From the NCBI GenBank assembly GCA_947624685.1, contig CANQLJ010000015.1:1-37720 (forward strand): a stretch of DNA of 37,720 nt, read 5' to 3'. A program made the translations under genes and the position numbers. Positions 871 through 14,453 of the stretch are shown here, piece after piece (within the stretch, counting starts at the first letter, position 1; every line of letters starts with the position of its first letter). The notes beneath the pieces were generated by a model that searched no databases, was not told the origin of the DNA, and saw nothing but the letters and a program-made list of their open reading frames with translations. The stretch is from Candidatus Gastranaerophilales bacterium (lineage in GTDB: Bacteria > Cyanobacteriota > Vampirovibrionia > Gastranaerophilales > Gastranaerophilaceae).

Positions 871-2220
871 TTATTTATCTTGTAAATCTTCAAGAGTCTT
901 TTTAACAATATCAAGGTATTTATAGCCATATCTTGTGGTAGGCTCCAACATCGCACCCTCCGCCCATTCGTTCCAAGCATTTATATAGACATATTGTTCA
1001 TTTTGGCTGTTATTTTGTTTTGTCCATTCAATAATTTCTCTAAGCCAAAGAGCAAAATCTTCTTCTGTCATGTTAAAACAGTATCCGTTTGAATAGGCTT
1101 TTCTTGGCAAATTATCCCAAGAAGGAAAACAGGTTTTAAATACTTTATAGTTTTCTTTTTTGAGATGGTATTTGTTTTGAAGATAGGGTTTTATATCGAC
1201 CATGGTGAATTTTGCTTGTTTTGATATTGAGCCTACAGCGTAACAATCGCAATATAAGCCGATTTTATGGGGCGGAAATTCAATGAGGCCTTCAAAACCC
1301 CAACTTTTTGGTTCATCAAATTCATAGGCGTTTGACGCCATAAAATAAAAACCGTTAAAGCCTTCTTTTTTAGCTAAATCATTTAAAATATCCAAAAATT
1401 TTAAAAATTCATCTTTGTTAAATTGCGTCGGCCGATAAATCATCAATATCGGTTTATTATCTATTTTTTCATATCTTTCATCTTTTATAAAGGGCAAGAT
1501 GTCTTCAAAAAAGCGTTTTGCATCATTTGAAGAAAAGTTTTGTTTAAGGATAATTTCTTTATCTCCGCCATCCCAAAGCTTTGACCAATTTTCATTCGCC
1601 CAGCAAAAATGAAAATGTATATCAATTTTATTTTTGAGAAAATGTTCCAAAGGCTTTTCAAGGACTTTTTTGCCCGAAAACCAATAATAATAAAAACAAA
1701 ATCCGTAAATTCCGTATAATTTTGCCAGTTGTGCCTGCCGCTCCATAACTCCTTTGGTCAAAAGATTATAAAACCCAAGGTCATAGGGAATTTTGGGTTG
1801 AAAATGTCCGACAAACATAGGACTTGCCGAAGCAACATTTGTCCATTCAGTAAAACCTTTTCCGTAAGCCGCATCATTTTCTTCAATCGAATGAAATTGC
1901 GTCAAATAATAGGCAAATATTTTTGTATCGTTCTTTTTTCTTTCGAAAGGAGTTTTTGTAATATCAACAAAATGGCTATGGTTGTTTTTTAAATCATCAA
2001 GCCATTGGCCGTATTTTTTTATATTAATTTTTCGAGAACTTTTAATCGTGAAGATATGGAGGCCAAAAAAATAATATCTTTTTTTGCCTTTTTGCTTTTT
2101 GCAACTAATTAAGAGGGGGGGGGTAGGAATTTTTGATATACAATTTTTGATTTTTTTAAGACAGGTTTTAAAACCGTTTTTATTATTGCTATCTTTTTCT
2201 TTTTCAACAGAATTTATCAT
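871..2220 (-). CDS. WbsX-like glycosyltransferase / GH99-like domain protein
   Basis: This 449-residue protein matches the WbsX family (PF14307; GH99-like domain), found in O-antigen, capsule and other surface-glycan loci. Visible hallmarks are YYLTQFHSIEENDAAYGKGF near residue 105, FTEWTNV, GIYGFCFYYYWFSGKK, the Trp-rich CWANENWSKLWDGG, a SWDNLPRKAY segment, and YINAWNEWAEGAMLEP near residue 415. The last is the strongest family signature, with Asn/Glu residues probably in the active site. About 60 N-terminal residues precede the domain and include a short aromatic/basic stretch (KKRYYFFGLHIF). The start at 2220 follows AAAAGGG. A C9 tract (2115-2123, C on the coding strand) lies around codon 33, so a one-base slip would truncate the protein before the catalytic domain; in this sequence the frame is open. 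A paralogue of similar length lies at 12316-13578. The reaction (sugar transfer or hydrolysis) cannot be told from sequence. Confidence 0.88.
   Translation of the reverse strand: MINSVEKEKDSNNKNGFKTCLKKIKNCISKIPTPPLLISCKKQKGKKRYYFFGLHIFTIKSSRKINIKKYGQWLDDLKNNHSHFVDITKTPFERKKNDTKIFAYYLTQFHSIEENDAAYGKGFTEWTNVASASPMFVGHFQPKIPYDLGFYNLLTKGVMERQAQLAKLYGIYGFCFYYYWFSGKKVLEKPLEHFLKNKIDIHFHFCWANENWSKLWDGGDKEIILKQNFSSNDAKRFFEDILPFIKDERYEKIDNKPILMIYRPTQFNKDEFLKFLDILNDLAKKEGFNGFYFMASNAYEFDEPKSWGFEGLIEFPPHKIGLYCDCYAVGSISKQAKFTMVDIKPYLQNKYHLKKENYKVFKTCFPSWDNLPRKAYSNGYCFNMTEEDFALWLREIIEWTKQNNSQNEQYVYINAWNEWAEGAMLEPTTRYGYKYLDIVKKTLEDLQDK
2115..2123. repeat. C9/G9 homopolymer inside WbsX-like gene
   Basis: Nine consecutive G on the plus strand read as C9 in the gene, coding for part of Thr-Pro-Pro-Leu-Leu around residues 32-36. 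The tract sits early in the gene, before the conserved domain, where slippage would have the greatest effect. The frame is open with nine bases. Confidence 0.75.
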
Positions 2221-7752: not shown

Positions 7753-9669
7753 ATGAAAATTAGTATTATAATACCCGTTTATAACACATCCGAATTTTTA
7801 AAAGATTGCTTAAATAGCGTCATAAATCAAACCTGTAAAGACCTCGAAATTATCTGTGTCAATGACGGTTCAACCGATAATTCTTTAAAAATTTTAAAAG
7901 ATTTTGCTTCAAAAGACCCGAGATTTAAAATAATTTCTCAAAAAAATCAGGGGCTATCGGGTGCAAGAAATACGGGGCTTGATTGCGCAACAGGAGAATA
8001 TATATCTTTTTTAGACAGTGATGATTGGATAGACCTTGATTATTTTGAAAAATTATATAATGCAATAATTAAATATAATGCTGATATTTCAGCGGCAAGT
8101 ATCTTAAGGACAAGAACAAGGGCAAGAAAAAATTTAACAAAAATCAGAGTTAAATATGATGAAGGAAAAGTTTATTCAGATTTAAAGGATAAAATTAAAG
8201 CCTGTAACATTCCAAAATGCTGCTATGTTTGGAATAAGCTCTATAAAGCGTCATTGGTTAAAGATAAAAAATTTAAAATCGGTGTTCAATATGAAGATAT
8301 TCTCTGGACGCCTGAAGTTCTAAAACAAGCGGATAAAATTGTAACCGTTCCCAATATTAACTATTATTATAGAGCCAATTCAAAATCAATCGTTAAAAAG
8401 AAACAAACAAAAAAACAGCAGTTTGATTCATACAACGCTAAAAAATATTTAATAGATTTTTTTGATAACAATAATTTGCCTTTAACTAAAAAGCAAAGAA
8501 CGATTGTTAAAGAACAAAAGTATTTATTAAACATGCCGGTTGCAAAAATCAAAGAATATAAAAACACCCTAACAACTTATCTGTTTGGATTTTTGCCGAT
8601 ATATAGAAAAAAAATTAAACTTCCCGTTGTTAAGAAAAACACTTTTTTTGTTTGGGAACCTTGTTCAAAGTCGCATTCTGAGGTAGTCCCCGGATATTGT
8701 AAATACCTTCTTGATTTAGGCTACCACGTATCAGTTCTTTTAGATCCCGACAGAATCAAAGAAGGTTTATTTTGCAGATTTGTTGATGAAAATTTAACGG
8801 TAAATAAATTAAATCGAAAAGAGATTAAGGAATATTTTAAAAATTCTTCCTTGAGTGATTCTTGTGGCGTAATTGTTACAACAGTCGGTAAAATATGCGA
8901 TTGCGTACATTATAATGAAGCGTATAGCGCATTTAACCCTATGGTTGATAAGAAAAAGCTTCTTTTTGTAGAGCATGAAGCAAGTTTTGCCGTTGATAAA
9001 GGAAGCTGGAAAGATGATTTAATAACGCTAAGAGAACTTAACTACAAGGGAGCAAGTTCAATTGTCGTTAATCCTCATTATTTTGGAGATGTTAAAATAA
9101 CACCAAAAAATGAAGATATTACCAATTTTATTACAATAGGAGCAATAAGACCAAACAAGAAAAATTCTCAAATGATAGTTGATAGTGCCTATGAAGTACT
9201 AAAAAAAGGTTATAAAAATTTTAAAATAACAGTCGTTGGAAAAGGAAGTTTAAAACACATCGATAAAGAATTAAGACCCTATTTTGACATAAAAGGCAGA
9301 TTGAGCTTTAAAAAGATGTATGAAGAAATAGAGCGTGCCGATTTTATGCTGACATCATATAACGACTATGACCCTGAACACATCCGTTATAATACATCAG
9401 GTACATCAGGTAATTTTCAGCTTGTATATGGATTTTTAAAACCCTGTATTATTATAAAAAGTTTTGCTCCTATTAACGGATTAAATGAAGATAATGCAAT
9501 TTTATATAATGATGATAAAGATTATGTAAACGCTTTAATTAAAGCAATAGAAATGAATAAAGAAGAATATAAAGCTATGCAGGATAATTTAAAAATCTAT
9601 GAGAAAAAGCTTTATAAAACTTCGCTTGAAAATTTAAAAGGATTAATAGATGGAAAATACAGTGTCTAA
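7753..9669 (+). CDS. bifunctional glycosyltransferase, GT2 domain fused to GT4-like domain
   Basis: 638 residues. The N-terminal GT2 domain (residues 1 to about 220) has IIIPVYNTSEFLKDCLNSV, NDGSTDNS, SGARNTGLD and the metal-binding FLDSDDW. After a basic linker (about 230-290), a second domain from about residue 295 resembles a GT-B enzyme of the GT4 type. It has a Rossmann-like start (FFVWEPCSKSHSEVVPGYCK, YLLDLGYHVSVLLDP), ITIGAIRPNKKNSQMIVDSA, KITVVGKG, and a late GTSGNFQLVYGFLKPCI segment in the donor-site position. Such fusions probably add two successive sugars to a growing surface glycan on the cytoplasmic face of the membrane. It is the first gene of the plus-strand glycan operon and overlaps the next gene by 20 nt. 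Donor and acceptor sugars cannot be predicted. Confidence 0.88.
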   Translation: MKISIIIPVYNTSEFLKDCLNSVINQTCKDLEIICVNDGSTDNSLKILKDFASKDPRFKIISQKNQGLSGARNTGLDCATGEYISFLDSDDWIDLDYFEKLYNAIIKYNADISAASILRTRTRARKNLTKIRVKYDEGKVYSDLKDKIKACNIPKCCYVWNKLYKASLVKDKKFKIGVQYEDILWTPEVLKQADKIVTVPNINYYYRANSKSIVKKKQTKKQQFDSYNAKKYLIDFFDNNNLPLTKKQRTIVKEQKYLLNMPVAKIKEYKNTLTTYLFGFLPIYRKKIKLPVVKKNTFFVWEPCSKSHSEVVPGYCKYLLDLGYHVSVLLDPDRIKEGLFCRFVDENLTVNKLNRKEIKEYFKNSSLSDSCGVIVTTVGKICDCVHYNEAYSAFNPMVDKKKLLFVEHEASFAVDKGSWKDDLITLRELNYKGASSIVVNPHYFGDVKITPKNEDITNFITIGAIRPNKKNSQMIVDSAYEVLKKGYKNFKITVVGKGSLKHIDKELRPYFDIKGRLSFKKMYEEIERADFMLTSYNDYDPEHIRYNTSGTSGNFQLVYGFLKPCIIIKSFAPINGLNEDNAILYNDDKDYVNALIKAIEMNKEEYKAMQDNLKIYEKKLYKTSLENLKGLIDGKYSV

Positions 9670-10555
9670 AATACCCGTAGTTTTTACTTTTGATAAAAGA
9701 ATTATCTTAGCTGGTGCCGTTATTATTCAAAGTCTAATTGATAACGCTAAAAGCAATACTCAATACGATATTTACGTATATCACCCCGATATAGATGATA
9801 AAACCATTCTTGAATATAAAAAAATGGTTGAAAACACTCCTCATTCAATAACTTTTGAATATATTTCAAAAGAAAAATTTAAAAATGCTCCGATAAATAA
9901 GCATGGCTCTTGGACGGAAATTGTTTATTACAGGCTTTTAATCCCCGAGCTTCTGCCACAATATGATAAAGTTATTTATATTGATACAGATGCAATTATC
10001 TTAGGCGACCTAACTGAAGCCTATAATATCGATTTAGAAGGCTATGACTGCGCTGCTGTTGCAATGGAGAAAAACAACGACAAAATGATTTGTCACAAAT
10101 ATTTCCCCGAAAACAAAAACGATTTAACCTATATTTCAAGCTTCATTATATTCAACTCTAAAAAAATGAGGCAAGATAATTTTGTTAATAAAGTTTTTGA
10201 TGTTATTAAAACATTTAACGATAGATTAAAATTCTTTGACCTTGATACGTTGAATATCGCATGCGATAGTATTAAGCCGCTTCCCTATCGCTATGGCGTA
10301 TTTCAAAGCATTTATTATAACGATGATTTTAAAGGAAGCTTTGAATACAGTTTCTTAAAAAATATTTATAGCGATGATGAACTTCAAAAAGAAAAAGAAA
10401 ACACAATTATGCTCCACTATGCAGGGCGCCCGGGGAAACCTTGGAGATTTAAAAAAGTTCCCGCGAACTATAAACAATACTTGGATAAAATTCCAAAAAG
10501 CTTAAAAAAATACACTTTTAGAGATTTAAGAAAAAAATTATTCAGCAAGGTATAA
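9650..10555 (+). CDS. GT8 family glycosyltransferase
   Basis: 301 residues, GT8 family (LPS galactosyl/glucosyltransferase type, PF01501). It begins with VVFTFDKRIILAGAVIIQSL, and has YYRLLIPELLPQYDKVIYID followed by the DxD metal site in DTDAIILGDL (near residue 110). It also has FNSKKMRQDN, LDTLNIACDS, and the closing HYAGRPGKPW motif that completes the metal site through its His. GT8 enzymes are retaining transferases that use UDP-Glc or UDP-Gal. The basic C-terminus (YTFRDLRKKLFSKV) may hold it at the membrane. The start lies inside the 3' end of the previous gene (20-nt overlap), indicating translational coupling; the next gene starts 8 nt after its stop. Confidence 0.9.
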   Translation: MENTVSKIPVVFTFDKRIILAGAVIIQSLIDNAKSNTQYDIYVYHPDIDDKTILEYKKMVENTPHSITFEYISKEKFKNAPINKHGSWTEIVYYRLLIPELLPQYDKVIYIDTDAIILGDLTEAYNIDLEGYDCAAVAMEKNNDKMICHKYFPENKNDLTYISSFIIFNSKKMRQDNFVNKVFDVIKTFNDRLKFFDLDTLNIACDSIKPLPYRYGVFQSIYYNDDFKGSFEYSFLKNIYSDDELQKEKENTIMLHYAGRPGKPWRFKKVPANYKQYLDKIPKSLKKYTFRDLRKKLFSKV

Positions 10556-10563
10556 TTAAATTA

Positions 10564-11349
10564 ATGAAAACAGCAATAATTACTCTAACCTATAATAAAC
10601 TTAATGAAGCAACAAAACCATATTTGAATTCATTATATAATTTTACGCCAATTGACACATTTGACCTTTTTATTGTTGATAACGGCTCAAATGACGGTAC
10701 GGTTGAATTTATTGAAGAATTTAAAAAGAACCACACAAACATTACAATAATAAAAAACAAAGAAAATCTTGGCTATTCAAAAGGCAATAACCTTGGAATT
10801 ATTGAAGCTCTAAAAAAAGATTATGATTATATTGCGCTATTAAATAACGATATTTTATTAACTCCAAATTGGCTAAATGACACAATAAGTGCTTTTAAGC
10901 TTGATGACACTTTAGGAATGTTGTCCCCCAGGAACAATGAAAAATGTAAATTAACACAAAATAATTATCTAAAAGGCTATAAAAAATATTTATCAAAATT
11001 TAAAGAACCCCTAAAATATGTTTTTACACCATTTTTCAGTTGTGTAATTATAAAAAAAGAAGTATTAGATAAAATCGGGCTTTTTGATGAAAACTTTTCA
11101 CCCGCTTTTTTTGAAGATAACGACCTTTGTTTTAGAGCAATGTATGAAGCGTACTCTTTAGCCTACTCTAACAATACTTTTATATTCCACAACCACTCAA
11201 CAACAAGCTCATCAATTGATAGTTCAATCCCTGAGAGAAACAAACAATATTTCTTTAAGAAACATCCCTTGGGAAGATATATTTGGGAACACAAAAGAAC
11301 AAATATTATAAAAGATGTTATAAAATACATAAAAGAAGGTCAAAATTAA
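10564..11349 (+). CDS. GT2 family glycosyltransferase (rhamnosyltransferase-like)
   Basis: 261 residues with a complete GT2 domain: AIITLTYNKLNEA, VDNGSNDGT, NLGYSKGNNLGI, and the DxD-equivalent LLNNDILLTP. It also has the acceptor-side FFSCVIIKKEVLDKIGLFDE followed by FFEDNDLCFRA. This set is typical of the WbbL/rhamnosyltransferase branch of GT2. The TAA stop overlaps the next ATG (TAATG at 11347-11351), so it is translationally coupled to the RgpF-like gene. RgpF-like and rhamnosyltransferase-like genes are commonly neighbours in rhamnose-containing polysaccharide loci, although no rhamnose biosynthesis gene is present in the window. Confidence 0.9.
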   Translation: MKTAIITLTYNKLNEATKPYLNSLYNFTPIDTFDLFIVDNGSNDGTVEFIEEFKKNHTNITIIKNKENLGYSKGNNLGIIEALKKDYDYIALLNNDILLTPNWLNDTISAFKLDDTLGMLSPRNNEKCKLTQNNYLKGYKKYLSKFKEPLKYVFTPFFSCVIIKKEVLDKIGLFDENFSPAFFEDNDLCFRAMYEAYSLAYSNNTFIFHNHSTTSSSIDSSIPERNKQYFFKKHPLGRYIWEHKRTNIIKDVIKYIKEGQN

Positions 11350-11774
11350 TGGAAAAAAAGAAAAAAAGTGCGGTTTTTGCCCATTATGACAATAAAAATA
11401 CGGTTCATGATTATGTTATTTTTTGCTTAAAAGAATTAAAAAAAATTGCTGATAATATTATTTTTGTTTCCGATTGCACTTTAGATGACATCGAATGCGA
11501 TAAAATAAAACCTTTTTGCTCTGAAATTATCGCTAAACCCCACGGCGAATATGATTTTGGCTCATATAAAAGAGGTTATCAATATTTAAAGGAAAATAAT
11601 CTTTTAGATGATGTTGATGAATTAATATTTGCTAATGACAGCTGCTTTGGGCCGTTTATGCCGTTTGGGGAAGTTTTTGATAAAATGAAAAGCAAAGACG
11701 AAAAATGGAGGTGTGACTTTTGGGGCATATCGAAGAATATCTTAAAGACCCCCCCCCCAACCTTCCTTAAATGA
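11349..11774 (+). CDS. RgpF-like glycan synthesis protein, N-terminal part (frameshifted at C10)
   Basis: The first 133 or so residues resemble the rhamnan synthesis protein F family (RgpF, PF05045): AVFAHYDNKNTVHDYVIF, IIFVSDCTL, EIIAKPHGEYDFGSYKRGYQ, ELIFANDSCFGPFMPF, VFDKMKSK and CDFWGISKN. At the C10 tract (11749-11758) the frame runs into a TGA at 11772, giving a short tail of Pro, Thr and a few others. The RgpF homology continues immediately downstream in the next frame (see 11770-12240). Nine C residues would join the two parts into a protein of about 296 residues. RgpF proteins extend cell-wall or surface polysaccharide chains. Either this is the off state of a phase-variable gene, or the tract length is a sequencing error. 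Confidence 0.85.
   Translation: MEKKKKSAVFAHYDNKNTVHDYVIFCLKELKKIADNIIFVSDCTLDDIECDKIKPFCSEIIAKPHGEYDFGSYKRGYQYLKENNLLDDVDELIFANDSCFGPFMPFGEVFDKMKSKDEKWRCDFWGISKNILKTPPPTFLK
11749..11758. repeat. C10 homopolymer at the frameshift of the RgpF-like gene
   Basis: Ten consecutive C on the coding strand. The frame upstream and the frame downstream differ by exactly one base: deleting one C reads acc-ccc-ccc-caa-cct and continues into EHVQSFFIVFKEQ. The tract is the longest G/C run in the window. Confidence 0.85.
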
Positions 11775-12240
11775 ACATGTTCAAAGTTTCTTTATTGTTT
11801 TTAAGGAACAGATTTTTAAAAACAAAATATTTGATGATTTTATAAATAAAATAAAAAAAGAAGAAAATAAAGACGACATAATAAAAAAATATGAAATTGG
11901 TTTAAGCAGATATTTAGTTGACTTGGGGTTTAAATTTGATTCATATTGCGATTCTGAGACAAGAGCATATTTTGAATATAAAGACTATTTTAAGCAAGGC
12001 GGTTTTGTTTTAATTAAAAAAACTTATTTTAAATATTTAAAATATTTTTTAATAAACCTCATTTTAAAAAATATCAACGAGAAAAATTACTATAGCGAAG
12101 ATTTGATATATAAATATCTTCAAGACACAAATCACAAAGGAAAAATCCTATACACTCTTAAGACAATAAAAAAGCTCATTATTTCAATTCAAATCACAAA
12201 AAGAAAAATTGTGTTTTTTGGAAAAACTTTTAAATTTTAA
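11770..12240 (+). pseudogene. RgpF-like glycan synthesis protein, C-terminal part (out of frame)
   Basis: Continuing in the frame reached by removing one C from the tract, the sequence reads NEHVQSFFIVFKEQIFKNKI and then a helical region. Next come YEIGLSRYLVDLGFKFDSYC, YFEYKDYFKQGGFVLIKKTY and NYYSEDLIYKYLQD, ending with KIVFFGKTFKF and TAA at 12238-12240. The order and content match the second half of RgpF-type proteins. There are no stops in this frame, so the only lesion is at the C tract. A first in-frame ATG occurs at 11923, but it lacks a visible Shine-Dalgarno, so separate translation of this part is unlikely. A lone frameshift at a long homopolymer in an otherwise clean gene fits slippage better than decay. 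Confidence 0.8.
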
Positions 12241-12247
12241 ATCATTT

Positions 12248-12276
12248 TTGCAAAAATAGTTTTAGCTTAGTATAAT
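12248..12276 (+). promoter_or_regulatory. promoter TTGCAA-17-TATAAT
   Basis: -35 TTGCAA (12248-12253), 17-bp spacer, -10 TATAAT (12271-12276). The predicted start is near 12283, leaving a leader of about 33 nt with an AAGAGG Shine-Dalgarno before the ATG at 12316. It allows the last two glycan genes to be expressed independently of the upstream operon. Confidence 0.75.
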
Positions 12277-12315: not shown

Positions 12316-13578
12316 ATGAAAAAATTATTTTGTTTAGAAGTTGAAAAACACAATACCTATAATGTTATAAAAATAAGATTCTTTGCAATAGGTTTTAAAT
12401 TCAAATTAAACAAAAGAAGCAGTCAAAAAAATAAAATAAGTTATATTGACTATATTTTTAATAAAGATACATCAAATTTTATTCCTCTGACAAATGAAAG
12501 ATATTATGGCACAAGCTCAATTAAACCAATCGCATTTTATCTTCCTCAGTTTCATACAATTCCATTGAACGATGAAAAAATTGAAAGAGGTTTTTGCGAA
12601 TGGACAAATGTTACAAAAGCAATGCCCTATTTTACGGGACACTATCAGCCGCATTTACCGATTGATGTAGGGTTTTATGATTTAACAACCGATAAAATAA
12701 TGTATAGACAGGTTGAATTAGCTAAATTATACGGTATTTACGGTTTTTGTTTTTATTATTATTGGTTTTCAGGGGGAAAAAGACTTTTAGAAACGCCTTT
12801 GTTTAACTATTTAAATAATAAAAAACTGGATTTGCCTTTTTGCCTCTGTTGGGCTAATGAAAGCTGGAAATCTCAATGGGATGGCGGAAATAAAGAACTT
12901 TTAATGGAGCAAAAATTTACTTTTGATGACCCCGAAAGATTTTTCTATGACACTTTAGCGTTTTTTAAAGATGAAAGATATATAAAAATCGACAATAAAC
13001 CGGTTTTAGTTTATTACAATCCAAAATTATTTAAAAAAGAAGAAACAATCTATTTTGTAAATAAATTGCAAGAATTAGCCAAAAAAGAAGGTTTTGATGG
13101 TTTATATATTATTGGAGCTTTAGTTTTTGAAAACAAAAATTCAACAGAATTTAATATGGATGCTTCGGTTGAATTTTTCCCGAATAACCACGAAAATATT
13201 AAAGAAAAAGAAATGAAAGACACATTTATATATAATGACTACAAATGTATTATATATGATATGGAAGATGCCGTTAAAAATAAAAAATTTATGCCAAATT
13301 ATAACCATAAAGTGTTTAAAGGTATTTTCTCAAGTTGGGATAATTCGGCAAGAAAAGCTTTTAAGGGCGGCTGGTGTTTTCAATCAAGCCCAAAGCTTTA
13401 TAAAACCTGGCTAAAAGATGTAATTAACTATACAAAAGAACAGTTCGAAGCTAAAGAACGCTATATTTTTATTAACGCTTGGAACGAATGGGCAGAAGGA
13501 GCGCATCTTGAACCGGATAGAAAATTCGGTTATGCTTATTTGGAAATGACAAAACAAGCGCTTCAAGAGGATAAATAA
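12316..13578 (+). CDS. WbsX-like glycosyltransferase / GH99-like domain protein (second copy)
   Basis: 420 residues, paralogous to the protein at 871-2220. Shared signatures in the same order: AFYLPQFHTIPLND, FCEWTNVTKAMPYFTGHYQP, GIYGFCFYYYWFSGGK, CWANESWKSQWDGG, KDERYIKIDNKPVLVYY, FSSWDNSARKAF and INAWNEWAEGAHLEPD (near residue 385). The N-terminal 35 residues contain a short aromatic/basic stretch, VIKIRFFAIGFKFKLNKR, similar to tags on other proteins of these clusters. Unlike the first copy it has no homopolymer tract and is in frame throughout. It has its own TTGCAA-17-TATAAT promoter. The stop overlaps the next start (TAATG at 13576-13580), so it is coupled to a GT2 gene. It probably acts in surface glycan assembly, with the precise reaction unknown. 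Confidence 0.9.
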   Translation: MKKLFCLEVEKHNTYNVIKIRFFAIGFKFKLNKRSSQKNKISYIDYIFNKDTSNFIPLTNERYYGTSSIKPIAFYLPQFHTIPLNDEKIERGFCEWTNVTKAMPYFTGHYQPHLPIDVGFYDLTTDKIMYRQVELAKLYGIYGFCFYYYWFSGGKRLLETPLFNYLNNKKLDLPFCLCWANESWKSQWDGGNKELLMEQKFTFDDPERFFYDTLAFFKDERYIKIDNKPVLVYYNPKLFKKEETIYFVNKLQELAKKEGFDGLYIIGALVFENKNSTEFNMDASVEFFPNNHENIKEKEMKDTFIYNDYKCIIYDMEDAVKNKKFMPNYNHKVFKGIFSSWDNSARKAFKGGWCFQSSPKLYKTWLKDVINYTKEQFEAKERYIFINAWNEWAEGAHLEPDRKFGYAYLEMTKQALQEDK

Positions 13579-14453
13579 TGGCAAATAATAATCCTAAAAT
13601 ATCAATAATTACCGCAAGCTACAATTATGCCGAATATATAAAAGAAACGATTGAAAGTGTTCTAAATCAGGATTACTCCAATTGGGAGATGATTGTGGTT
13701 GATGACGGGTCAAAAGATAATTCAATTGACGTTATTAAAAGTTATTGCAAAAAAGATGATAGAATTAAACTATATACCCACGAAAATAATATTAACAAAG
13801 GTTTAATCGAAACCATAAAACTCGGTTTAACAATGGCAACAAGCGAATGGGTTGCTTTTTTAGAATCGGATGACACATTTAAAAAAGAAAAACTTTCAAA
13901 ATGTATTGAAGCAATTGAAAAATATAAAGACGTTGATTTTATATTTACGGATGTTGAATTAGTCGGGGATAAACAAGAGATTCACAAAAGATTTAAAAAT
14001 TATTTTGAAGAACAAAGAAAAATCATAGGAAAAAATAAATATCCTCTTAAAATATTGCACACGTTATTAAAAGATAATCGAATTCCGACGTTTTCGTGCG
14101 TTATGTTAAAAAAGGAATTATTTAACGGTGTTGATTTTAATTCCCCGACCCCTCCCTGTCTTGATCATTGGCTTTGGGCGCAGATTTTGGGAAAAGCAAA
14201 TGTATTATACATAAATGAAAAATTAACAAATTGGACAATACATAATAGCTACATCATAAAAGCGAAATACGATAAAGCTTTGCAAGCAAAATTTAGCGAA
14301 GGAATTTATAATTACATTAAAAATAATTCAAAAGGTTTTAGTGCGAAATTAAAAATATTTCCAGCCATATTAACACACTACAGAAAAAATATTTTCAGAT
14401 TTTCGCTCAAAGAAAGAAGAATTTGCCTGTTTAAAAAAGAGTTTCGATTTTAA
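13578..14453 (+). CDS. GT2 family glycosyltransferase
   Basis: 291 residues with a full GT2 domain: ISIITASYNYAEYIKETIES, VLNQDYSNWEMIVVDDGSKD, GLIETIKLGLTMATSEWVAF, LESDDTFKKEKLS (the DxD region, here Glu-Ser-Asp-Asp), FIFTDVELVGD and the acceptor segment CLDHWLWAQILGKANVLYIN. The C-terminus ends in a short basic/aromatic tag (ERRICLFKKEFRF), like the RgpF-like protein. It is the last gene of the plus-strand glycan cluster, meets the WbsX gene with a 1-nt overlap, and converges on the secretion/pilus operon. Sugar specificity is unknown. Confidence 0.9.
   Translation: MANNNPKISIITASYNYAEYIKETIESVLNQDYSNWEMIVVDDGSKDNSIDVIKSYCKKDDRIKLYTHENNINKGLIETIKLGLTMATSEWVAFLESDDTFKKEKLSKCIEAIEKYKDVDFIFTDVELVGDKQEIHKRFKNYFEEQRKIIGKNKYPLKILHTLLKDNRIPTFSCVMLKKELFNGVDFNSPTPPCLDHWLWAQILGKANVLYINEKLTNWTIHNSYIIKAKYDKALQAKFSEGIYNYIKNNSKGFSAKLKIFPAILTHYRKNIFRFSLKERRICLFKKEFRF

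Follow-up and report, generated by a model that had tools for sequence, protein, structure and literature searches.

The window analysed here is a stretch of 37,720 nucleotides (32% GC) from the genome of a Candidatus Gastranaerophilales bacterium (G000; 2.015 Mb in 92 contigs). Gastranaerophilales are non-photosynthetic relatives of the cyanobacteria that dwell in animal guts. The ObgE protein encoded in the window is 76-79% identical to those of uncultured genomes, three of five of which are named Candidatus Gastranaerophilales. Six glycan genes lie on the + strand between positions 7753 and 14453, and the fourth of them, an RgpF-like gene, contains a run of ten Cs at which its reading frame breaks. 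The features of the window that bear on this gene are as follows.

2115..2123, - strand: C9 tract (coding strand) in the WbsX gene at 871-2220, now in frame; the second such tract of the window (from sequence)
7753..9669, + strand: GT2/GT-B-like two-domain glycosyltransferase, first of the run (profile match)
9650..10555, + strand: GT8 glycosyltransferase (profile match)
10564..11349, + strand: GT2 glycosyltransferase, whose stop overlaps the ATG of the RgpF-like gene (profile match)
11349..12240, + strand: putative RgpF-family (PF05045) glycan-biosynthesis gene in two frames, out of frame at C10 (profile matches; intact homologue in a sister species)
11349..11774, + strand: N-terminal open frame as assembled (PF05045 positions 1-89)
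11749..11758, + strand: C10 homopolymer, the proposed slippage switch (sequence; genome-wide excess of such runs)
11759..12240, + strand: C-terminal open frame, 159 codons long, in a different frame from the ATG (PF05045 positions 103-244)
12248..12276, + strand: sigma-70-like promoter match TTGCAA-17-TATAAT, before the WbsX gene (consensus match only)
12316..13578, + strand: WbsX-type glycosyltransferase, downstream of the RgpF-like gene (profile match)
13578..14453, + strand: GT2 glycosyltransferase, last of the run (profile match)

The ATG at 11349 shares bases with the stop codon of the upstream GT2 gene (TAATG), an arrangement that probably couples translation of the two. Downstream, the WbsX gene and the last GT2 gene may have their own promoter at 12248-12276, although promoter-like matches are overall about as frequent in shuffled sequence; without that promoter, the off state of the RgpF-like gene could lower expression of both through polarity. 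With GT2, GT8, GT2, WbsX and GT2 genes as neighbours, the placement of the RgpF-like gene in a glycan operon by the preliminary description is supported, subject to the possible separate promoter. The second tract of the window, at 2115-2123, lies close to the start of its WbsX gene.

As assembled, the RgpF-like frame comprises 141 codons, the final eight of them from the tract onward, and stops at 11774. Its product matches PF05045 at positions 1-89 (6.3e-17), and the frame that follows the tract, 159 codons without a stop ending at 12240, matches positions 103-244 (2.2e-13); the two halves score 61.8 and 50.2 bits. When one C is removed, the two matches fuse into a single unbroken match of a 296-residue protein to positions 1-244 (E = 1.7e-35), scoring 123.1 bits against a curated cut-off of 25 bits. 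The preliminary description had located the crossing between frames at a ten-C run and had predicted a continuous protein of about 296 residues after loss of one C; coordinates, C count and protein length all proved correct. The predicted protein shares its Pfam family with the RgpF rhamnan synthesis protein (PF05045), and its match reaches no further than the first half of the model's 503 positions. The tract itself surpasses the homopolymer length of about 7-8 or more within a reading frame that characterizes poly-C/G phase variation, and a single base toggles the product between a full-length and an early-stopped protein. An AlphaFold model of the read-through protein was set aside because of its mean pLDDT of 38.

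An intact homologue is present in a sister species (G010), with 46% identity over residues 4-296 and no C or G run of 5 or more. In the alignment, the tract corresponds to a short loop insertion directly before a conserved H(V/I)QSFF motif (HVQSFF/HIQSFF). Identity to this homologue is 58% before the tract and 36% over the 154 residues after it (5e-24). The C-terminal part is not visibly decaying, since it still aligns with the homologue and holds no stop. An RgpF-like match was found in 4 of 28 genomes of the genus. No named RgpF relatives were found among genome contigs, searches of viral contigs for length variants of the RgpF-like and tail-fibre proteins returned none, and no plasmid matched the glycan gene run.

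The tract is one of many in the source genome, which contains 28 C/G runs at least nine bases long (13 of 9, 13 of 10, and 2 of 11), as well as 12 further runs of exactly 8. A second-order Markov model built on about 138 kb of the genome predicts about 3.3 runs of at least 9 in a genome of this kind. The 28 runs represent 26 distinct sites, two of which are seen from both contig ends. Reading the stretches around the tracts placed 20 of the 26 sites in Pfam-recognisable genes, nearly all of surface, glycan, phosphonate, methylation or prophage type, and the remaining 6 outside any recognised gene. The glycan and modification genes include WbsX, the RgpF-like gene, two FkbM methyltransferases and a GT1. 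Three radical-SAM genes and two aldo-keto-reductase/radical-SAM fusions also carry tracts, as do genes for two HAD-domain proteins, a membrane protein with a uridine-kinase-like domain, and a DUF1796 protein; the phage-type genes are two DNA methylases and one tail fibre. The phosphonate genes comprise two PEP mutases and one aminotransferase, for which AEP transaminase is the best NCBIfam match, below the model cut-off. Thirteen of the 20 genes are in frame, 4 are out of frame, 1 is found in both states and 2 have no frame call. The four out of frame are the RgpF-like gene, an aldo-keto/radical-SAM gene, a PEP mutase and the FkbM gene at the C58/C16 contig junction. Runs of 9 or more are absent from most members of the genus. 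In one other species, G011, the search pattern was hit 24 times at 21 sites, and a few further genomes gave between one and six hits. The tract genes of G011 are likewise glycan genes, encoding FkbM, polysialyltransferase-like, fucosyltransferase and CgtA-like proteins, acyltransferases and others.

The tracts in the two PEP mutase genes and the AEP-transaminase-like gene (L025:2498, L028:4783 and L035:2489) suggest that a phosphonate decoration of the surface may be switchable. On contig C1 (L019:2334-4344), three tandem DNA-methylase-like genes adjoin a phage terminase large subunit gene, and in-frame G10 tracts occur in two of them. A phasevarion reading of the tract-bearing methylases was held back given this neighbourhood. 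On contig C29 (L027:1058-3442), a phage tail-collar fibre gene with an in-frame G10 tract adjoins genes for baseplate J and P2 tail protein I; this tract could switch the host range of a prophage or tailocin.

The sequence following the tracts was also inspected for early stops. In the frame entered by loss of one base, a stop within 3 codons occurs after 58% of tracts in G000 and 61% in G011, against about 25% expected (p = 0.003 and 0.001), whereas in the frame entered by gain of one base enrichment is seen in G000 (p = 0.02) and not in G011 (p = 0.96). We do not rely on this enrichment, because the gain-frame effect is confined to G000 and paralogous tracts do not count as independent observations.

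Evidence that such tracts change in length comes from two sites. Contigs C23 and C67 of G000 overlap by 117 and 116 bp and are identical apart from the length of the tract, G10 or G9; the radical-SAM gene concerned is in frame (on) with G10 and out of frame (off) with G9. In another genus of the same order, the surroundings of a radical-SAM tract align between genomes G018 and G034 over 1011 bp at 95.7% identity, and the sole gap in this alignment is one base within the tract (in frame at G10, out of frame at G11). Two further comparisons between this pair were dropped. In one, the tract was a G9 in the DAHP synthase gene of G034 that is absent from the orthologue, an example of the chance origin of some long runs in other species; in the other, the match was to a dispersed repeat only. 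This repeat, of about 150 bp and mostly 77-91% identical between copies, occurs in L066 of G034 and at about 28 places, more than 20 times, in G018. In G000, a contig end is found within 75 bp of the tract for five of the occurrences, against 0.19 expected (28 x 184 ends x 75 bp / 2.015 Mb). Tract positions also vary between homologous genes: in two PEP mutases that are 52% identical, the tract follows residue 60 or 111, and two homologous aldo-keto/radical-SAM proteins likewise have tracts at differing positions. These differences suggest that tracts have been gained repeatedly.

Canonical mismatch repair appears to be incomplete throughout the genus. The MutL_C domain was found in none of 27 genus genomes (23 of high quality), and a full-length TIGR00585 match in none of 19, whereas each of the 11 genomes sampled elsewhere in the order, from other genera, encodes a full-length MutL. 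In lacking MutL, the genus resembles Campylobacter. A shorter MutS_I-bearing protein is retained, with the G000 copy in L089. When the MutS-like proteins of five genus members and two others were aligned, two stretches of the others were missing from those of the genus, which carried the motif DEPAKST in place of DEIGRGTST. In C. jejuni, where mismatch repair is missing, poly-G/C tracts mutate at 4e-4 to 4e-3 (PMC4235727). Loss of MutL was rejected as a full explanation of the tracts: most genus members without MutL also have no tract of 9 or more, tract-free sister species among them. The absence of MutL permits tract instability and does not explain the tracts alone.

Phase variation through poly-C/G tracts is well known in Campylobacter, Neisseria and Helicobacter, and the preliminary description had assigned the C10 tract to this mechanism. 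The about 26 tract sites, the G9/G10 contig pair, the one-base difference between G018 and G034 and the lack of MutL all argue for that assignment. We consider it likely that the C10 tract is a slipped-strand contingency switch in a glycan-biosynthesis gene and belongs to a phasome of about 26 sites; what chiefly makes phase variation the best explanation is the presence of further tracts in the genome. During replication, the run would gain or lose one C. A length of C9, or of C9 plus or minus multiples of three, would restore the frame, so that the RgpF-like protein would be made and its glycan step would be on; at C10, translation would end within about eight codons and the step would be off. 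Slippage would take place at 11749-11758 itself and would be reversible, and its rate is probably raised because MutL is absent. Switching would be expected to change the surface glycan and its recognition by phage or host. With about 26 such runs in its genome, the bacterium probably switches many of its surface genes randomly between on and off states, in the manner of Campylobacter.

The state of the gene as assembled could have other origins. Poly-C/G runs at least 8 long are prone to errors in Illumina sequencing and are frequent points of contig breakage (PMC4235727). For this reason both the C10 count and the G9/G10 contig pair could be technical, and the pair is good, but not final, evidence of length change. 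The clustering of tracts at contig ends fits such a technical origin. That the tract is miscounted and the gene simply intact is nevertheless unlikely: the tract and the other 25 sites would still stand, long C/G runs in genes that one base can break are themselves the signature of contingency loci, and the G10/G11 pair comes from separate assemblies of two species. Fixation of the gene at C10 as a decaying pseudogene would fit its out-of-frame state as assembled, and the rarity of its relatives within the genus suggests that it may be dispensable. Against decay, however, the 159 downstream codons hold no second lesion, that part keeps its 36% identity to the intact relative in G010, its single lesion lies where the gene is most prone to slippage, and 25 further sites are of like kind; we regard decay as highly improbable.

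The tract might also set the dose of the protein instead of switching it. Long homopolymers let RNA polymerase slip, and transcriptional slippage or ribosomal frameshifting on C10 would yield some full-length protein, an effect that could coexist with slippage of the DNA. Constant frameshifting, however, would not predict that 13 of 20 recognisable tract genes are plainly in frame, which makes a dose-setting role in place of a switch quite improbable.

The closest parallel is the poly-G/C phasome of Campylobacter jejuni and C. fetus (PMC6321876, which describes PhasomeIt; PMC4235727; PMC4965091), also found in AT-rich, host-associated bacteria. Shared features are dozens of C/G runs of about 8-11 in glycan, methyltransferase and radical-SAM genes and an ON/OFF logic based on frame shifting; canonical mismatch repair, lacking in Campylobacter, appears to be at least incomplete here. 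The present organism differs in belonging to another phylum and in being an uncultured inhabitant of the animal gut, in which switching is predicted from sequence; its tract genes include PEP mutases and AEP-transaminase-like, WbsX and RgpF-like genes, and it keeps a diverged MutS-like protein while MutL is missing. Bifidobacterium breve provides a commensal example of poly-G phase variation, in which slippage of an intragenic G-tract restores a split pilus gene (PMC9187656). It shares the gut-commensal habit and differs in having two loci, in switching pili rather than glycans, and in having been demonstrated by maximum depth sequencing. For the tail-fibre tract on contig C29, the phase-variable receptor-binding protein of a phage reported by Sorensen et al., as cited in PMC11868660, is a similar case; according to that citation it was established with plaques and antibodies, whereas the tail-fibre tract is a feature read from sequence in a prophage-like region.

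We found no report of phase variation in Gastranaerophilales or Melainabacteria in the openly licensed literature; the mechanism is a known one, in a group for which no report was found. That phase variation at multiple loci appears to be confined to pathogens is listed among the open questions by a 2025 review (PMC11868660), and for this reason the finding is of greater interest at the level of the genome than at that of the single gene. For metagenomics, it carries the warning that glycan genes in such genomes will be annotated as broken or will interrupt contigs. With moderate confidence, we lean towards a broader history in which the genus lost MutL and remodelled MutS, after which some of its species built phasomes on the scale of that of Campylobacter, spanning surface glycans, phosphonate decoration, prophage DNA methylases and tail fibres. 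Such multi-locus phase variation would have arisen independently of Campylobacter, in a lineage not known for pathogens. The co-occurrence of species with about 26 sites and with none in one MutL-less genus offers a natural comparison of what drives the formation of tract sets, and the genome described here, from an uncultured lineage of the gut, is a strong candidate counter-example to the view that only pathogens vary in phase at many loci.
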